Shown one piece after another: positions 9,227-22,246 of a DNA stretch of 22,246 bases. Source of the stretch: a virus; the IMG/VR virus record IMGVR_UViG_3300032561_001460, positions 1 through 22,246 of that record. One strand, given 5' to 3'. The notes under the pieces were generated by a model. That model ran no database searches, was not told the origin of the DNA, and saw nothing but the letters and a program-made list of their open reading frames with translations. Position 1 is the first letter of the stretch; each line of letters opens with the position of its first letter. Position numbers and translations under genes: made by a program.

Positions 9227-9442
9227 ATGGAACAGAACAAAAAACCAGTTGAACAGTATTATTACTCTGAAGAAGAGTGGAGCAGATTAGGTTGTGGTCC
9301 ATTGCCAGCAATTCGGAACCGATCAATACTAAATATACCTACTAATGCTCATTTGAGTTTTAGAGTGGTTAGATATATTAAGTATCACGCTACGCTTGTT
9401 TATATCAAATTGGTTGACAAAATAGGTAAAATAGTAGTATAA
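9227..9442 (+). CDS. hypothetical protein, 71 aa
   Basis: ATG start directly after the ACTAAATA motif, without a clear ribosome site. The first half is polar with YYYSEEEWSRLGCGP; the second is probably beta-rich (LSFRVVRYIKYHATLVYIKLVDKIG). The promoter for the cold-shock gene lies inside its 3' end. Unknown family; moderate confidence that it is translated. Confidence 0.55.
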   Translation: MEQNKKPVEQYYYSEEEWSRLGCGPLPAIRNRSILNIPTNAHLSFRVVRYIKYHATLVYIKLVDKIGKIVV

Positions 9443-9443
9443 T
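9414..9443 (+). promoter_or_regulatory. sigma70-type promoter of the cold-shock/tmRNA unit
   Basis: TTGACA at 9414-9419, 18-bp spacer, TATAAT at 9438-9443. The leader to the cold-shock ATG (9471) is only about 20 bases. No other promoter is visible before the tmRNA, so both are probably one transcript. Confidence 0.82.
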
Positions 9444-9470: not shown

Positions 9471-9674
9471 ATGGCAACAGGTAAAGTAAAGTGGTTTAAT
9501 GATGCAAAAGGGTTTGGATTTATTACCCCCGATGCTGGTGGTGAGGAATTGTTTGCACATTTTTCCGCAATTAGCACAAATGGTTTTAAGAGTTTAAAAG
9601 AGAATCAAGCGGTAACATTCGATGTAGTGGCAGGCCCTAAAGGCAAGCAAGCATCAAATATTCTTCCGCTGTAA
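9471..9674 (+). CDS. cold-shock protein (CspA family)
   Basis: A 67-residue single OB-fold RNA/DNA-binding protein that melts RNA secondary structure. RNP1 is KGFGFI (residues 13-18) and RNP2 is LFAHF (27-31), in the typical frame [21 protein letters not shown] ending [10 protein letters not shown]. The sequence, especially the [12 protein letters not shown] stretch, is like betaproteobacterial CspA proteins, pointing to the host group (inference). The ribosome site is AAAGGAA. It stops one base before the region assigned to the tmRNA acceptor piece, so the chaperone and the tmRNA are likely cotranscribed. Confidence 0.95.
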
Positions 9675-9675
9675 A

Positions 9676-10010
9676 GAATTGTTGTAATTCCTTCGTAGTG
9701 AAGGCGCTGTGGACCCGGGTTCGATTCCCGGCATCTCCACCGAAGCATATTACCGAACCGAGTTATCGGTAGCGAGGCCAAAAGCTGTAGTATGTTTCAG
9801 TGGGGATGACAAGGTTTCGACATGGTGAGATAATGAAAGAGGCAACACAGTAGGCGATGACTGTAAATCAAGCGAAAAACTTAAATGCAAACGCATCTAA
9901 AGGCGAAGTAACTGTTTCAGGTAAGGGAATTCGTTTCTCTGCTCGTACAGCACAACGCCAAACATTAGCAGTTTAATCACTGCTTTGCGGAGTTATCCGT
10001 CGAAACAGAA
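9676..10010 (+). ncRNA. ssrA: circularly permuted (two-piece) tmRNA gene
   Basis: The tmRNA 3' segment precedes its 5' segment. The acceptor piece (about 9676-9741) carries a T-arm CCGGG-TTCGATT-CCCGG (9715-9731) and the acceptor strand CATCTCC (9732-9738), then ACC without a final A. The coding piece starts at 9802 with GGGGATG, which pairs in all seven positions (one G-U) with CATCTCC. It continues AAGGTTTCGAC, like the tmRNA D-region, into a tag reading frame and the P5 hairpin (9968-9983). The segment between (9742-9801, with a CCGA/TCGG hairpin) would be excised. This gene order is known from alphaproteobacteria, cyanobacteria and some betaproteobacteria; it rescues stalled ribosomes. 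The exact outer ends are estimates. Confidence 0.9.
9887..9976 (+). other. tmRNA tag-peptide reading frame, 29 codons
   Basis: After the upstream segment AAACTTAAAT, the resume codon is GCA at 9887, giving the usual ANxx start. The frame reads ANASKGEVTV, passes through basic residues and ends RQTLAV at TAA 9974-9976. The stop lies in the loop of a GCAGT/ACTGC hairpin, as in canonical tmRNAs. The other two frames stop within eight codons. The tag is long, basic and ends in LAV rather than LAA. Confidence 0.8.
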
Positions 10011-10018
10011 AATAACAG

Positions 10019-10044
10019 ATAGGGGCTTCGACCCCTATTCTTTT
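10019..10044 (+). terminator. terminator behind the tmRNA
   Basis: A 7-bp stem ATAGGGG/CCCCTAT closes a loop containing TTCG and is followed by TCTTTT. It ends the cold-shock/tmRNA unit. Positions 10045-10164 hold no gene; they are the leader of the next gene, with AAAGGAACTATTAG before its ATG. Confidence 0.8.
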
Positions 10045-10164
10045 GACTTCATTATATGCGTATATTAAACTTAAAAATATGCCAAAACCTAGCAATTTTT
10101 GCAGGCCAACGCAAAAAAACAATAAATATTTGTTCAGTAGTATAAACATAAAGGAACTATTAGT

Positions 10165-10617
10165 ATGAAAAAAGTAATTTTAGCAGTAGCATTATTAGCA
10201 TCAACTACTTTTGCTTTCGCAACTGACGTTGGTGTTTTTGGTGGCCGCAACATGGGCTCTAAACAAGATACCGCAGGCGTTTCTGTTGGTCAATCATTTG
10301 GCGCAATTGGCGTTCAAGGAACTTTTGATCGTAGTACTACCAATGCTGTTGATGTTAATCGTTACACAGCATCTGTGAGTTATGACGTTATCAAACTAGG
10401 TCCCGTACAAACTAATGTTCGTGCTGGAGCTGCATTTATTGACACACAAAAACCTGGCGTAGGTAATGGTGGTGCTGGATTTATTGGCGCAGGGATTGCC
10501 TATCCTGTAGTTAAGAATGTAAATTTGGTAGCTGATTATGCCTACCAAAAAGGTAATAACATTACTAAGGCTTACAATGGCAACATCGTAACCGCAGGTG
10601 TTAAGTACTCGTTCTAA
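10165..10617 (+). CDS. small outer-membrane beta-barrel-like protein
   Basis: A classical signal peptide (MKKVILAVALLASTTFAFA, cleavage after residue 19) precedes a Gly-rich, alternating beta-strand protein (AGVSVGQSFGAIGVQGTF; YTASVSYDV; VNLVADYAYQKG). It ends in VTAGVKYSF with the C-terminal Phe used for outer-membrane insertion. The mature length of about 131 aa fits an eight-stranded barrel of the OmpW/OmpX/Opa-like size class. It has its own leader with AAAGGA and a strong terminator. Phage genes of this kind may alter the host surface, for example to exclude superinfecting phages (inference). It could also be a gene picked up from a host. Confidence 0.75.
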   Translation: MKKVILAVALLASTTFAFATDVGVFGGRNMGSKQDTAGVSVGQSFGAIGVQGTFDRSTTNAVDVNRYTASVSYDVIKLGPVQTNVRAGAAFIDTQKPGVGNGGAGFIGAGIAYPVVKNVNLVADYAYQKGNNITKAYNGNIVTAGVKYSF

Positions 10618-10674: not shown

Positions 10675-11175
10675 ATGAAGATAGTAATCACTGGACATAC
10701 TGGTTTAGTAGGAAGCAAAATAGTTGAATTATTCCCCAATGAAGAAGTTATCGGGTTAAGTCGTAGTAACGGATACGATTTAACTACAAAGTACGACGAG
10801 TGCTTGTCTATAATGAAATCAGCGGACATAGTATTCAATAATGCCTATTCAGGTACTATACAAGCAAATATCATAAAAGATTTAAAAGATTCAAAAGTAA
10901 CTTTAATTACTATTGGAAGTATTGCTGGATACTATAGCACCAATCCATATCAAGTTAATAAAAAAATAATACACGAAACATATCAATATCATAAACCATT
11001 TTATCCAGAAAGATGTTTATTGTTGATACCAGGTTTTCTTGAAAATAATGCTAGGTGCGTTGAATTAGGTCGTACAGTCATTGATGTTAATCAAGTTATT
11101 AACGGTATTAAATATTTTTTAGATAATAAAAGAGTCACTATGATAGAATTTGATAATACTAGTAGGAAATTATAA
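10675..11175 (+). CDS. short NAD(P)-binding SDR/epimerase-like protein
   Basis: The N-terminus has the Rossmann glycine motif GHTGLVGSKI (residues 6-15). A strand-turn ADIVFNNA (50-57) and ITIGSIAGYYSTNPYQVNKK follow, with a YxxxK pair (YQVNK) as in short-chain dehydrogenases/epimerases. At 166 aa it is shorter than usual for the family (about 230-320), so the substrate-binding part is reduced. It could reduce or epimerise a nucleotide sugar, but the substrate is unknown. It shares a TAATG junction with the next gene. A GGTAAATA motif lies just upstream. Confidence 0.75.
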   Translation: MKIVITGHTGLVGSKIVELFPNEEVIGLSRSNGYDLTTKYDECLSIMKSADIVFNNAYSGTIQANIIKDLKDSKVTLITIGSIAGYYSTNPYQVNKKIIHETYQYHKPFYPERCLLLIPGFLENNARCVELGRTVIDVNQVINGIKYFLDNKRVTMIEFDNTSRKL

Positions 11176-11822
11176 TGCTGTTATATCATAAAACAAATTT
11201 TGATTTCTCACAAGAAGCTAAAGATTGGTTACTTAACCGATATAAAGATCACTTCAAATTAAATTTCTATCATAATTATGATTGGATTCAAAATCAACTA
11301 CAACATGAATGGCGAGCATCTATTGCTGGAGAAGAATTATTGTCTTACCTTTCTCAATATAATTGCGATACATCTAATCTGATCATAACTGCTCATCTGG
11401 CAAATTTAACAATACCATATTATAGTCGCCCGCACGTTGACGCCGAACAATTATACGGACCTGCTAAAGGTAAAATAACAGTAACTTCAAAATTTAATAT
11501 AATAGTGCTTGGTAATCCAGAAGATCCTATGCTTTGGTGGACTAACTTTCACCATACAGATAAACGCTTGTACTATAGTAATGTTTTAAATACACGTACT
11601 AATCAAGAATTTAGTAGTTTATCTATGCCAGGACACACTAATGAAGAAAAAATGGAGTATCTAGGTCCTGCTACAGATACAGCATCAAATTTACTAACTC
11701 CTAGCGCATTTGTACGCACAGATTATATTCATACTATAAAATTAAGTCCTGGACCAAGATTGGTAATTACTGTGCCTTTCGATAAAAGTATAGAAGAGTT
11801 AATCAATGTTACTATTCCATAA
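11175..11822 (+). CDS. 2OG-Fe(II) oxygenase-like protein, copy 1
   Basis: The residues expected of a 2-oxoglutarate/Fe(II) dioxygenase can be seen: H87-x-D89 in RPHVDA, the distal H186 and, nine residues on, R195 in HTIKLSPGPRLVITV, the usual 2OG-binding Arg position. The fold around them is beta-rich, with WWTNFHHTDKR and SNLLTPSAFVRTDY. The 215 aa length fits a single jelly-roll. The substrate is unknown; family members hydroxylate proteins, nucleobases or small molecules. Its last 17 bases overlap copy 2, with which it shares most of its sequence. Confidence 0.65.
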   Translation: MLLYHKTNFDFSQEAKDWLLNRYKDHFKLNFYHNYDWIQNQLQHEWRASIAGEELLSYLSQYNCDTSNLIITAHLANLTIPYYSRPHVDAEQLYGPAKGKITVTSKFNIIVLGNPEDPMLWWTNFHHTDKRLYYSNVLNTRTNQEFSSLSMPGHTNEEKMEYLGPATDTASNLLTPSAFVRTDYIHTIKLSPGPRLVITVPFDKSIEELINVTIP

Positions 11823-12420
11823 AACAGATTTTGATTTTTCGCAGGAAGCTAAAGATTGGATACTTAATCGATATAAAAATCATTTTAATGAAAATTTTTA
11901 TCATAATTTAGATTGGGATCAAAGAAAGTTACAGCACGAATGGCGTGAAGTAAGTGCTGGACAAGAATTATTAAATTATTTGTCGCAATATAATTGTGAT
12001 ACATCCAATCTAATCATAACCGCACATTTAGCTAATTTAGAAAATCAAGGTTATGGAAGACCCCATGTGGATAACGAAAACCATAAAATTTTAAAAAGTA
12101 GATTTAATATATTAATAAAAGGTAATCCAGAAGATCCTATGCATTGGTGGACCGATTTTCATCATACTGATAAAAGACTATACTCGATTACTCAAGTAAG
12201 TACTCGAACTGGATTACCTTTTACTGGGCTAACTATGCCAGGAACAACAGTAGCAGAAAAAATGGAATATTTAGGCCCTGCTACGGCTGCAGAATCAAAT
12301 TTACTAACTCCTAGCGCATTTGTACGCACAGACTATGTGCATACCGTACATTTGAGCCCAGGACCGAGATTAGTAATTACAGTGGGGTTCGAAAAATCTA
12401 TAGAAGATCTAATCAATTAA
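11806..12420 (+). CDS. 2OG-Fe(II) oxygenase-like protein, copy 2
   Basis: A tandem duplicate of the preceding gene. Both start MLL-HKT-FDFSQEAKDW, share QYNCDTSNLIITAHLANL and end in the same HT-LSPGPRLVITV block. The metal-binding H87, D89 and H179 and Arg188 are conserved, so both copies may be active. A segment of about 11 residues after the HxD site (YGPAKGKITV in copy 1) is missing here. The divergence suggests an old duplication with separate substrates rather than a recent copy. The start lies inside the end of copy 1, so the two are translated as a pair. Confidence 0.65.
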   Translation: MLLFHKTDFDFSQEAKDWILNRYKNHFNENFYHNLDWDQRKLQHEWREVSAGQELLNYLSQYNCDTSNLIITAHLANLENQGYGRPHVDNENHKILKSRFNILIKGNPEDPMHWWTDFHHTDKRLYSITQVSTRTGLPFTGLTMPGTTVAEKMEYLGPATAAESNLLTPSAFVRTDYVHTVHLSPGPRLVITVGFEKSIEDLIN

Positions 12421-21295: not shown

Positions 21296-21675
21296 TGGGC
21301 ATGTTTGACAACATTGAGTATCGAGGTCGGCAGTATCAAACCAAAGATACTCCCTTACAAACTCTGGATAATTACAAGATTGAACAGGATCAGGACTCAG
21401 GTCATTGGCGTCTGTGGCATGAAGAATATGACTCAGAGTGGGTTGATAGTGCGGACGGGTTCCTAGGCGGAACAATGGTTCAAAGCAATGAGCGTTGGGT
21501 ATGCTGTGATGATTTTGATGGTGTAATTTGTTTTTACTATTACCGGTCTGAAGAAGACCAGGAAGAATATGAAGCCTTGTTTATGAATGGCCGTATGTTA
21601 AAAATTAAACAAACTCAGGGCGAACCGCTAACAGAGTGGTTGGTTAAGGGTATAGAAGAACGGGGATTGGAATGA
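21295..21675 (+). CDS. hypothetical protein, 126 aa
   Basis: The start is taken at ATG 21295 (MGMFDNIEYRGRQYQTKDTP), which shares a base with the previous stop; a second ATG at 21301 is possible. MFDNIEY-G--YQTKDTPLQ-LDNYKIE is a pattern I know from short phage proteins of unknown function. The rest is acidic and aromatic (WRLWHEEYDSEW, CCDDFDGVICFYYY), probably beta-rich. It is ATGA-coupled to the next gene. Confidence 0.78.
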   Translation: MGMFDNIEYRGRQYQTKDTPLQTLDNYKIEQDQDSGHWRLWHEEYDSEWVDSADGFLGGTMVQSNERWVCCDDFDGVICFYYYRSEEDQEEYEALFMNGRMLKIKQTQGEPLTEWLVKGIEERGLE

Positions 21676-21893
21676 ACGAACGCATTAAAGAACTTATGTT
21701 AGAAGCCGGTTATGCGGCTCCCGAGTTAGCAGGCCGTGCTAATAAGCTAGCCGAGTTGATTGTGAGAGAATGTGCTGGCAAGGTAGAGGAACTGGCAGAA
21801 AAGTTGGCAGAACAAAGACCGAATAGTAATTACGATTCAGTAGCATATGAATGTGCCGAAGTTATTAAAACGCAGTTTGGAGTTGAACTATGA
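21672..21893 (+). CDS. conserved small phage protein, 73 aa (paralog of 5545)
   Basis: It begins MNERIKELMLEAG and ends VIKTQFGVEL. It shares KLAELIVRECA with the protein at 5545-5757, the second copy of this family. The centre contains a predicted coiled helix (KVEELAEKLAEQ). As at 5545, a short membrane protein follows, so the pair of genes may have been duplicated together. Function unknown. Confidence 0.8.
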   Translation: MNERIKELMLEAGYAAPELAGRANKLAELIVRECAGKVEELAEKLAEQRPNSNYDSVAYECAEVIKTQFGVEL

Positions 21894-22015
21894 AAGATTT
21901 AGGATTTGTTTTATCAATATTATTATTAGTTTTCCTATTTCAAGGCGAGCCAGATGTATGGGACAAACTTCATGATCGGGCAATGGCAATGGATATCTGT
22001 GAAGGAAAAAAATAA
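21890..22015 (+). CDS. small membrane protein, 41 aa
   Basis: ATGA-coupled to 21672. After MKDLG, residues 5-18 (GFVLSILLLVFLFQ) form a short hydrophobic segment, either a membrane anchor or a signal-anchor, followed by a charged tail ending CEGKK. Too short to classify. Its TAA overlaps the next ATG. Confidence 0.6.
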   Translation: MKDLGFVLSILLLVFLFQGEPDVWDKLHDRAMAMDICEGKK

Positions 22016-22246
22016 TGCGTGTATGGACCTCAAAATACAGAAATCACTGGATCTCACCGTATGTTATCCTCAAGGCCATATGCTTTTGGGAACGAGACGA
22101 AGATCGCATCTACAATCTCAAGGAAGAAGCCGACAATCCATACATCAAGTGGGTTAAATTGTTAGATCCTATTTGTGTTGCCTGGCAACGCTTCTTGGAC
22201 TTGGTTCATCCACGCTGGACTTATGTTCGCATTGATCCATGGGATA
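22015..22246 (+). CDS. conserved phage protein, 5' part (runs off the window)
   Basis: ATG 22015 overlaps the previous stop (TAATG) and the frame stays open to the window edge, 77 codons. It encodes MRVWTSKYRNHWISPYVILK, then a charged segment, and WVKLLDPICVAWQRFLDLVHPRW before ending YVRIDPWD. The HWISPY ... LDPIC ... LD-VHP ... Y-RID-WD pattern matches a widespread phage hypothetical family I recall, whose members continue for 50-100 more residues. Function unknown. Confidence 0.8.
   Translation, partial: MRVWTSKYRNHWISPYVILKAICFWERDEDRIYNLKEEADNPYIKWVKLLDPICVAWQRFLDLVHPRWTYVRIDPWD

Follow-up and report, generated by a model that had tools for sequence, protein, structure and literature searches.

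The DNA analysed here, called the window throughout, is a 22,246-base virus contig that carries 26 tRNA genes besides a tmRNA gene. The tmRNA gene lies at about 9680-10017 and is confirmed to be circularly permuted, i.e. a two-piece tmRNA gene. The features of the locus are:

9414-9443, + strand: sigma-70-like promoter, TTGACA-18-TATAAT, 12 of 12 positions (consensus match only)
9471-9674, + strand: cold-shock protein (csp) gene, 67 amino acids with a CSD domain, directly upstream of the tmRNA
9680-9741, + strand: acceptor (tRNA-like 3') piece, with P2 3' strand, T-arm, acceptor 3' strand, discriminator A and CC (Rfam, folding and sequence; 5' end approximate)
9715-9731, + strand: T-arm, CCGGG-TTCGATT-CCCGG (sequence and Rfam)
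9732-9738, + strand: acceptor 3' strand, CATCTCC (by eye)
9739, + strand: discriminator A (A73) (by eye)
9740-9741, + strand: CC (by eye)
9742-9801, + strand: intervening segment of 60 nt, expected to be removed; its self-pairing extends the acceptor stem (folding)
9802-9821, + strand: start of the coding piece, with acceptor 5' strand GGGGATG (9802-9808) and D-loop GGTTTCGAC (sequence and Rfam)
9843-9865, + strand: P2 5' strand and the next hairpin (PK1 region) of the permuted tmRNA model (Rfam alignment)
9887-9976, + strand: tag frame from resume codon GCA to stop TAA, 29 amino acids, ANASKGEVTVSGKGIRFSARTAQRQTLAV (ARAGORN, Rfam and comparison)
9967-9984, + strand: P5 hairpin, AGCAGT (9967-9972) with ACTGCT (9979-9984), and the tag stop TAA (9974-9976) in its loop (sequence and folding)
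10018-10039, + strand: intrinsic-terminator-like hairpin with a T-rich tail (pattern match only)

ARAGORN called a permuted tmRNA (tmRNA*) at 9650-10067 with the tag ANASKGEVTVSGKGIRFSARTAQRQTLAV. Rfam matched its tmRNA_permuted model, RF04321, at 9680-9919 (118.4 bits, cut-off 47, E 5.9e-23) and its beta_tmRNA model, RF01850, at 9639-9945 (117.6 bits, cut-off 84), and because these scores are far above the cut-offs a chance origin of the match is very unlikely. An earlier note, made from the letters alone, had read this part of the virus record as a permuted tmRNA and had proposed both ARAGORN and the Rfam covariance models as checks. Both agree with it, and the gene is complete. The anatomy that the note described also stands: the T-arm and acceptor 3' strand (9715-9741) lie upstream of GGGGATG at 9802, and the tag frame, the intervening segment and a P5 hairpin with the stop codon in its loop are all present.

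In the window gene, as in the RF04321 model, the T-arm and acceptor 3' strand precede the acceptor 5' strand and the tag, and there is a resume codon, a tag frame and a stop within the P5 loop; the resume codon GCA falls at the Rfam consensus UAAaUGCaAACG, and the PK1 region aligns to the model (Rfam alignment, with pseudoknot-free folding). Read from the sequence, the acceptor stem GGGGATG/CATCTCC forms seven of seven pairs, including a G3:U70 wobble, and is followed by A73. A G:U third acceptor pair is the recognition element of alanyl-tRNA synthetase. The terminal A of CCA is absent from the gene, where the DNA reads ACCG. RNAfold recovered the acceptor stem, T-arm and P5 both in the precursor fold, where the intervening segment lengthens the acceptor stem, and in a cofold of the two pieces; P5 did not form when the coding piece was folded alone. 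By sequence, the coding piece has only an approximate 3' boundary. From these features, the phage gene probably yields a functional two-piece tmRNA.

The csp gene and the tmRNA are probably a single transcription unit, since a promoter-like site stands before csp and a terminator-like hairpin follows the tmRNA; six promoter-like sites were found where shuffles give 2.8. The pairing of the two genes recurs in relatives. Among the best 80 of 412 csp relatives, a tmRNA* lies at most 2.5 kb downstream of csp in 51 loci. For the 29 loci where ARAGORN called no tmRNA* downstream, a tmRNA or tag motif is present in 14, another 10 stop less than 600 bases from csp, and 5 have no explanation. Beyond the tmRNA, the next listed gene (10165-10617) encodes a 150-aa protein that by eye seems to bear a signal peptide and that weakly matches the outer-membrane beta-barrel family PF13505, below the Pfam cut-off (E 6.6e-4). 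Elsewhere in the window, 35-2235 holds neighbouring genes for a QueE-like radical SAM protein and an S-adenosylmethionine synthetase, and 11175-12420 holds two tandem paralogous genes (74% DNA identity) that have no Pfam match.

The closest annotated-phage relatives of the window's 5'-3' exonuclease are in jumbo phages such as PA5oct (53.7% identity), and a 158.5 kb contig, G001, is identical to the window across 19,671 bases. Some huge phages encode SmpB (PMC7162821). A PF01668 search found no phage SmpB in any of 12 related records, the window included and all of them possibly fragments, so the tmRNA would depend on the SmpB of the host.

Another related contig, G009 (235.8 kb), carries a second permuted tmRNA with the tag ANDESYALAA, next to a T4-like gp32 gene (159.5 bits). 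The window matches G009 and a further contig, G006, only up to 21301. Past that point G009 and G006 stay alike until about window-equivalent 21725, where they diverge; contig G005 sides with G006. G001 ends near window-equivalent 21024, judging from its coordinates. The departure of the window over 21301-22246 may be a genome end, a repeat-driven assembly break or a variable junction. We considered and rejected the idea of one phage with two tmRNAs of different tags: G009 is likely chimeric, and less probably a real variant genome, as the contigs part beyond 21301 and the second tmRNA sits beside a gp32 gene that is absent from G001 and G006. The gp32 family has short-tag tmRNAs in 27 of 80 kept loci, five of them with the same tag, ANDESYALAA.

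The earlier note had taken a phage with a two-piece tmRNA to be unusual and to suggest capture from, or a match to, a host of a lineage with such tmRNAs. The first point held only in part, and the comparison did not support the second. Two-piece forms make up 53 of 133 published phage tmRNA structures, and 50 of the 53 come from marine or aquatic samples (PMC9004378). The newest tmRNA database holds 79 phage sequences, all forms together (PMC11915505), and the virus loci collected here gave 126 unique motif cores. Two isolate phages, Pseudomonas phage UF_RH6 and Stenotrophomonas phage Marzo, have permuted tmRNAs by ARAGORN and by Rfam (RF04321, 118.8 and 119.0 bits; RF01850, 104.4 and 94.6 bits, respectively); Marzo also has an overlapping second ARAGORN call. 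Pseudomonas aeruginosa and Stenotrophomonas hosts carry one-piece tmRNA genes, so a permuted gene in a phage need not match a permuted gene in its host. A permuted tmRNA was also seen on the Pandoraea oxalativorans conjugative plasmid pPO70-1 (1171-1505 of that locus; RF04321, 128.8 bits); ARAGORN reads its tag, an odd one, as GKNDAFYYEAA.

The tRNA-like domain was also compared across the virus loci. A structure search that required at least six of seven acceptor pairs, and neither G3:U70 nor A73, found 117 unique permuted tRNA-like domains; G3:U70 is present in 109 of them (the other eight may include false ones) and A73 in all 117, which argues for charging. Loci found by another motif were evaluated for acceptor pairing by a crude fixed-offset extraction, in which 36 of 166 hits were dropped for want of a D-loop motif and 16 for want of a T-arm motif. 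The mean over 24 distinct arm pairs was 5.29 of seven, above all 1000 re-dealings (maximum 5.0). Two sets of virus records, 13 and 8 in number, had been picked because their loci carried such tags, and every record in both passed the RF04321 cut-off.

A phage-borne two-piece tmRNA is itself already known, and the unusual part of the window gene is its long basic tag. The earlier note was silent on the sequence, length and composition of the tag, which are the stranger feature of the gene. The window tag ANASKGEVTVSGKGIRFSARTAQRQTLAV is 29 amino acids long, basic and ends in -LAV, compared with 10-13 amino acids and an -AA end in 38 related short-tag genes.

To place this tag among others, loci were collected independently of the tag, from the best 80 of 412 csp relatives and from at least 120 stretches with the motif upstream of the tag; the motif search then covered all collected loci, including those found by tag pattern. 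No tag was obtained from 24 of the 126 unique motif cores, some of which were cut by contig ends while others had short tags missed by the rule. The collection gave 114 unique tag coding sequences, and 113 after one was dropped. The dropped one was the ARAGORN tag GTHQFLAKYIQTALA for locus L005, a misread at a locus where the window's tag frame is intact.

The 113 tags comprise 37 in class A (motif V-x-V..[KR]-x-[IFVL]-[KR]-F), 37 in class B (motif TF[DEK][FY]..) and 39 others, called class C. Class A, to which the window belongs, has 29 amino acids in 32 of 37 tags, an LAV or FAV end in 33 of 37 and a mean net charge of +3.4. Class B is a second long class of 22-31 amino acids, acidic, with an LAA or IAA end in 31 of 37. 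Class C tags are nearly all 10-13 amino acids long (38 of 39), all end in [LMI]AA (39 of 39) and have a mean net charge of -1.6. Classes A and B have opening codons in common, e.g. GCAAACGCATCTACA, and 23 of the 37 class B tags have a canonical-looking N[DE]..AA end part. This suggests that the long tags are cassettes, inserted behind a short leader and ahead of the old degron.

One set of class A loci has a strongly diverged tRNA-like domain. The permuted tmRNA at 10290-10550 of locus L003, to which L004 and L009 are identical over the 600 bases compared, has the T-loop TGCAACT instead of TTCGATT, yet keeps its class A tag and, by eye, G3:U70. ARAGORN missed it in all three loci; Rfam detected it at 66.3 bits (cut-off 47) in L003 and L004, and also in the record of L009.

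The gene could be an ordinary captured tmRNA that does no more than supplement ribosome rescue by the host, with a tag whose length and sequence were free to drift neutrally because any tag frees the ribosome. Further Mollicutes, beyond the one that has been used as an example, also have long tags. That example (PMC9382460) fits drift, as do the variation in the part of class A tags downstream of the core and the modest synonymous excess over the whole class A tag (share 0.41 against 0.30 expected, p 0.023). Against drift, the long tags evolve under amino-acid-level constraint, in frame 0 only. We took 75 long-tag sequences, with no motif filter, and formed 28 disjoint nearest pairs, which hold 76.7 synonymous and 82.3 nonsynonymous changes; the synonymous share in frame 0 is 0.48, where 0.29 is expected (p=1.6e-7), and in frames +1 and +2 it is 0.21 and 0.11 (p=1 for each). 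The class A core has 19 synonymous against 11 nonsynonymous changes (p 1.2e-4), TCN/AGT serine switches included, in tests where class membership was set by a motif that limits amino-acid variation and where some sequences came from tag-pattern loci. GEVTVSGK-like cores are also kept across many contigs, part of whose loci were found by that core. With these results, neutral drift of the tag seems an unlikely explanation.

The tag region might instead be conserved for RNA structure and not for its peptide. CTGTTTC at 9912-9918 is complementary to GAAACAG at 10002-10008 over seven base pairs, and many codons are nearly invariant at the DNA level. Counting against selection on the peptide, the most distant class A pairs (distance above 0.2), with class membership again set by motif, have the same pN/pS, 0.83, in frame 0 and in frame +1. 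Conservation of the tag region at the DNA level is strong as well, so part of it may have an RNA role. GAAACAG is, however, also present in the short-tag members L277 and L319, where the stretch examined lacks the partner. An excess of synonymous changes shows up in frame 0 and not in the other two frames, and the diverged loci L228, L239 and L286 keep V-x-V..K-x-[IFV]-[KR]-F with other codons. Altogether, RNA structure is a rather improbable reason for the conservation of the tag as a whole. A crude test of P5 pairing over 111 tags gave 5.87, which is not above its control (the largest of 200 re-dealings was 5.89).

The tag classes seem to have moved between genes. A tree was built without the tag columns, from 101 rows and 102 columns, with 48 of its 97 inner branches open and 14 of 115 loci left out for lack of an assignable class. 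The three classes need 22 changes on this tree, compared with a mean of 47.3 when shuffled and a least possible number of 2. As the observed number falls between these, the tag classes cluster yet switch repeatedly. On a tree with few columns and many unresolved forks, this reads as tag classes apparently exchanged between similar RNA scaffolds.

The class A core was also searched for elsewhere. A scan of 84,980 genomes of prokaryote species with two exact degenerate patterns gave no hits. Each pattern covers 24 of the 37 class A tags, but the window's own tag, which reads -IRF- where most class A tags read -VKF-, is matched by neither of them, so the absence from bacteria holds for exact matches to the commoner form of the core. 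These bacterial scans covered class A, and diverged bacterial versions could be missed by them. In IMG/VR, a related class A pattern gave 59 stretches, 45 of them unique, and all 45 have the resume context TAAATGC upstream. A tblastn search of 50,697 phage records matched neither of two tags tried, one from class A and one from class B, and the long tags had no PHROG match. A PDB search with the tag returned nine matches up to E 10 (best E 2.8e-4, 22.9 bits), for the most part to repeats of cell-wall-binding proteins and toxins; they were set aside as chance or a shared hairpin pattern, since none has a stretch that passes on its own. Passages from PMC9004378, PMC11915505, PMC7162821, PMC4131195, PMC12595487 and PMC9382460 do not describe long phage tags.

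Our preferred reading, to which we give a probability of roughly 0.72, is ordinary trans-translation by a phage two-piece tmRNA whose phage-specific tag would alter the fate of the rescued peptides. By analogy with known permuted tmRNAs, the csp-tmRNA transcript would be cut by tRNA-processing enzymes at about 9741/9802, the host would complete the CCA end, and alanyl-tRNA synthetase would charge the molecule. Host SmpB would then bring the charged tmRNA to stalled ribosomes, where the nascent chain would be tagged and released. In the last and least certain step, the long tag would change the fate of the rescued peptides, whether of phage or host. The longer tag of Mesoplasma florum, with an NYAFA end, is read by Lon, and in E. 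coli a variant tag that ends in AAV is broken down more slowly than one ending in LAA (PMC9382460). The simplest altered fate would be proteolysis that is shifted or slowed relative to an -LAA tag, much as the Mesoplasma long tag shifts it to Lon. The data would fit equally well with a tag by which peptides are protected or sequestered.

The molecule might instead act as a decoy or inhibitor, tRNA-like in form and titrating the SmpB of the host, as was proposed for the tmRNA of phage DS6A, which consists of the tRNA-like domain (TLD) only. Such a TLD-only phage form inhibits tmRNA (PMC11915505, PMC4131195). The window gene, by contrast, retains a full coding piece with its resume codon, tag frame and P5, and the tag frame is under selection in relatives, which together make a decoy very improbable.

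Beyond trans-translation with a phage-specific tag, we propose tentatively, and with more doubt than belief, that a group of large environmental phages uses the two-piece tmRNA as an exchangeable tagging platform under selection by hosts or their defences. The swapped cassettes would be the basic, hairpin-like VxVSGKxxKF class ending in -AV, the aromatic class and the canonical short tags, and each would give the rescued peptides a fate of its own, for example degradation by another protease, protection or sequestration. While phage tmRNAs are known already, a constrained and seemingly exchanged class of tag raises the question of what happens to the tagged protein. An answer could yield new degron parts and bring to light a signal for protein fate that is specific to phages.

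Betaproteobacterial tmRNA tags are short, about 10 amino acids, and end in -LAA. The window gene resembles the betaproteobacterial two-piece tmRNA (RF01850) and RF04321 in its permuted order, tRNA-like domain, P2 and resume codon context, and differs from the betaproteobacterial gene in being phage-borne, in its 29-aa basic -LAV tag and in not encoding the terminal A of CCA. The betaproteobacterial subtype therefore applies to the RNA scaffold only: the model score is above its cut-off, and the tag is not of the short -LAA type. Like the two-piece tmRNA of Melnitz-type phages, the window gene is phage-encoded and permuted; the Melnitz gene is alphaproteobacterial-like and has a glutamine riboswitch (PMC9004378), whereas the window gene fits the beta model and follows csp, and no riboswitch reached the Rfam cut-offs within the window. 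The tag of Mesoplasma florum is likewise longer and departs from -LAA, although it belongs to a bacterial gene and ends in NYAFA, and the likeness is one of description (PMC9382460). UF_RH6 and Marzo have permuted phage tmRNAs like that of the window, but with the short tags ANDTSFDVRLAA and VAANDDSYTVRIAA, respectively, as read by ARAGORN.
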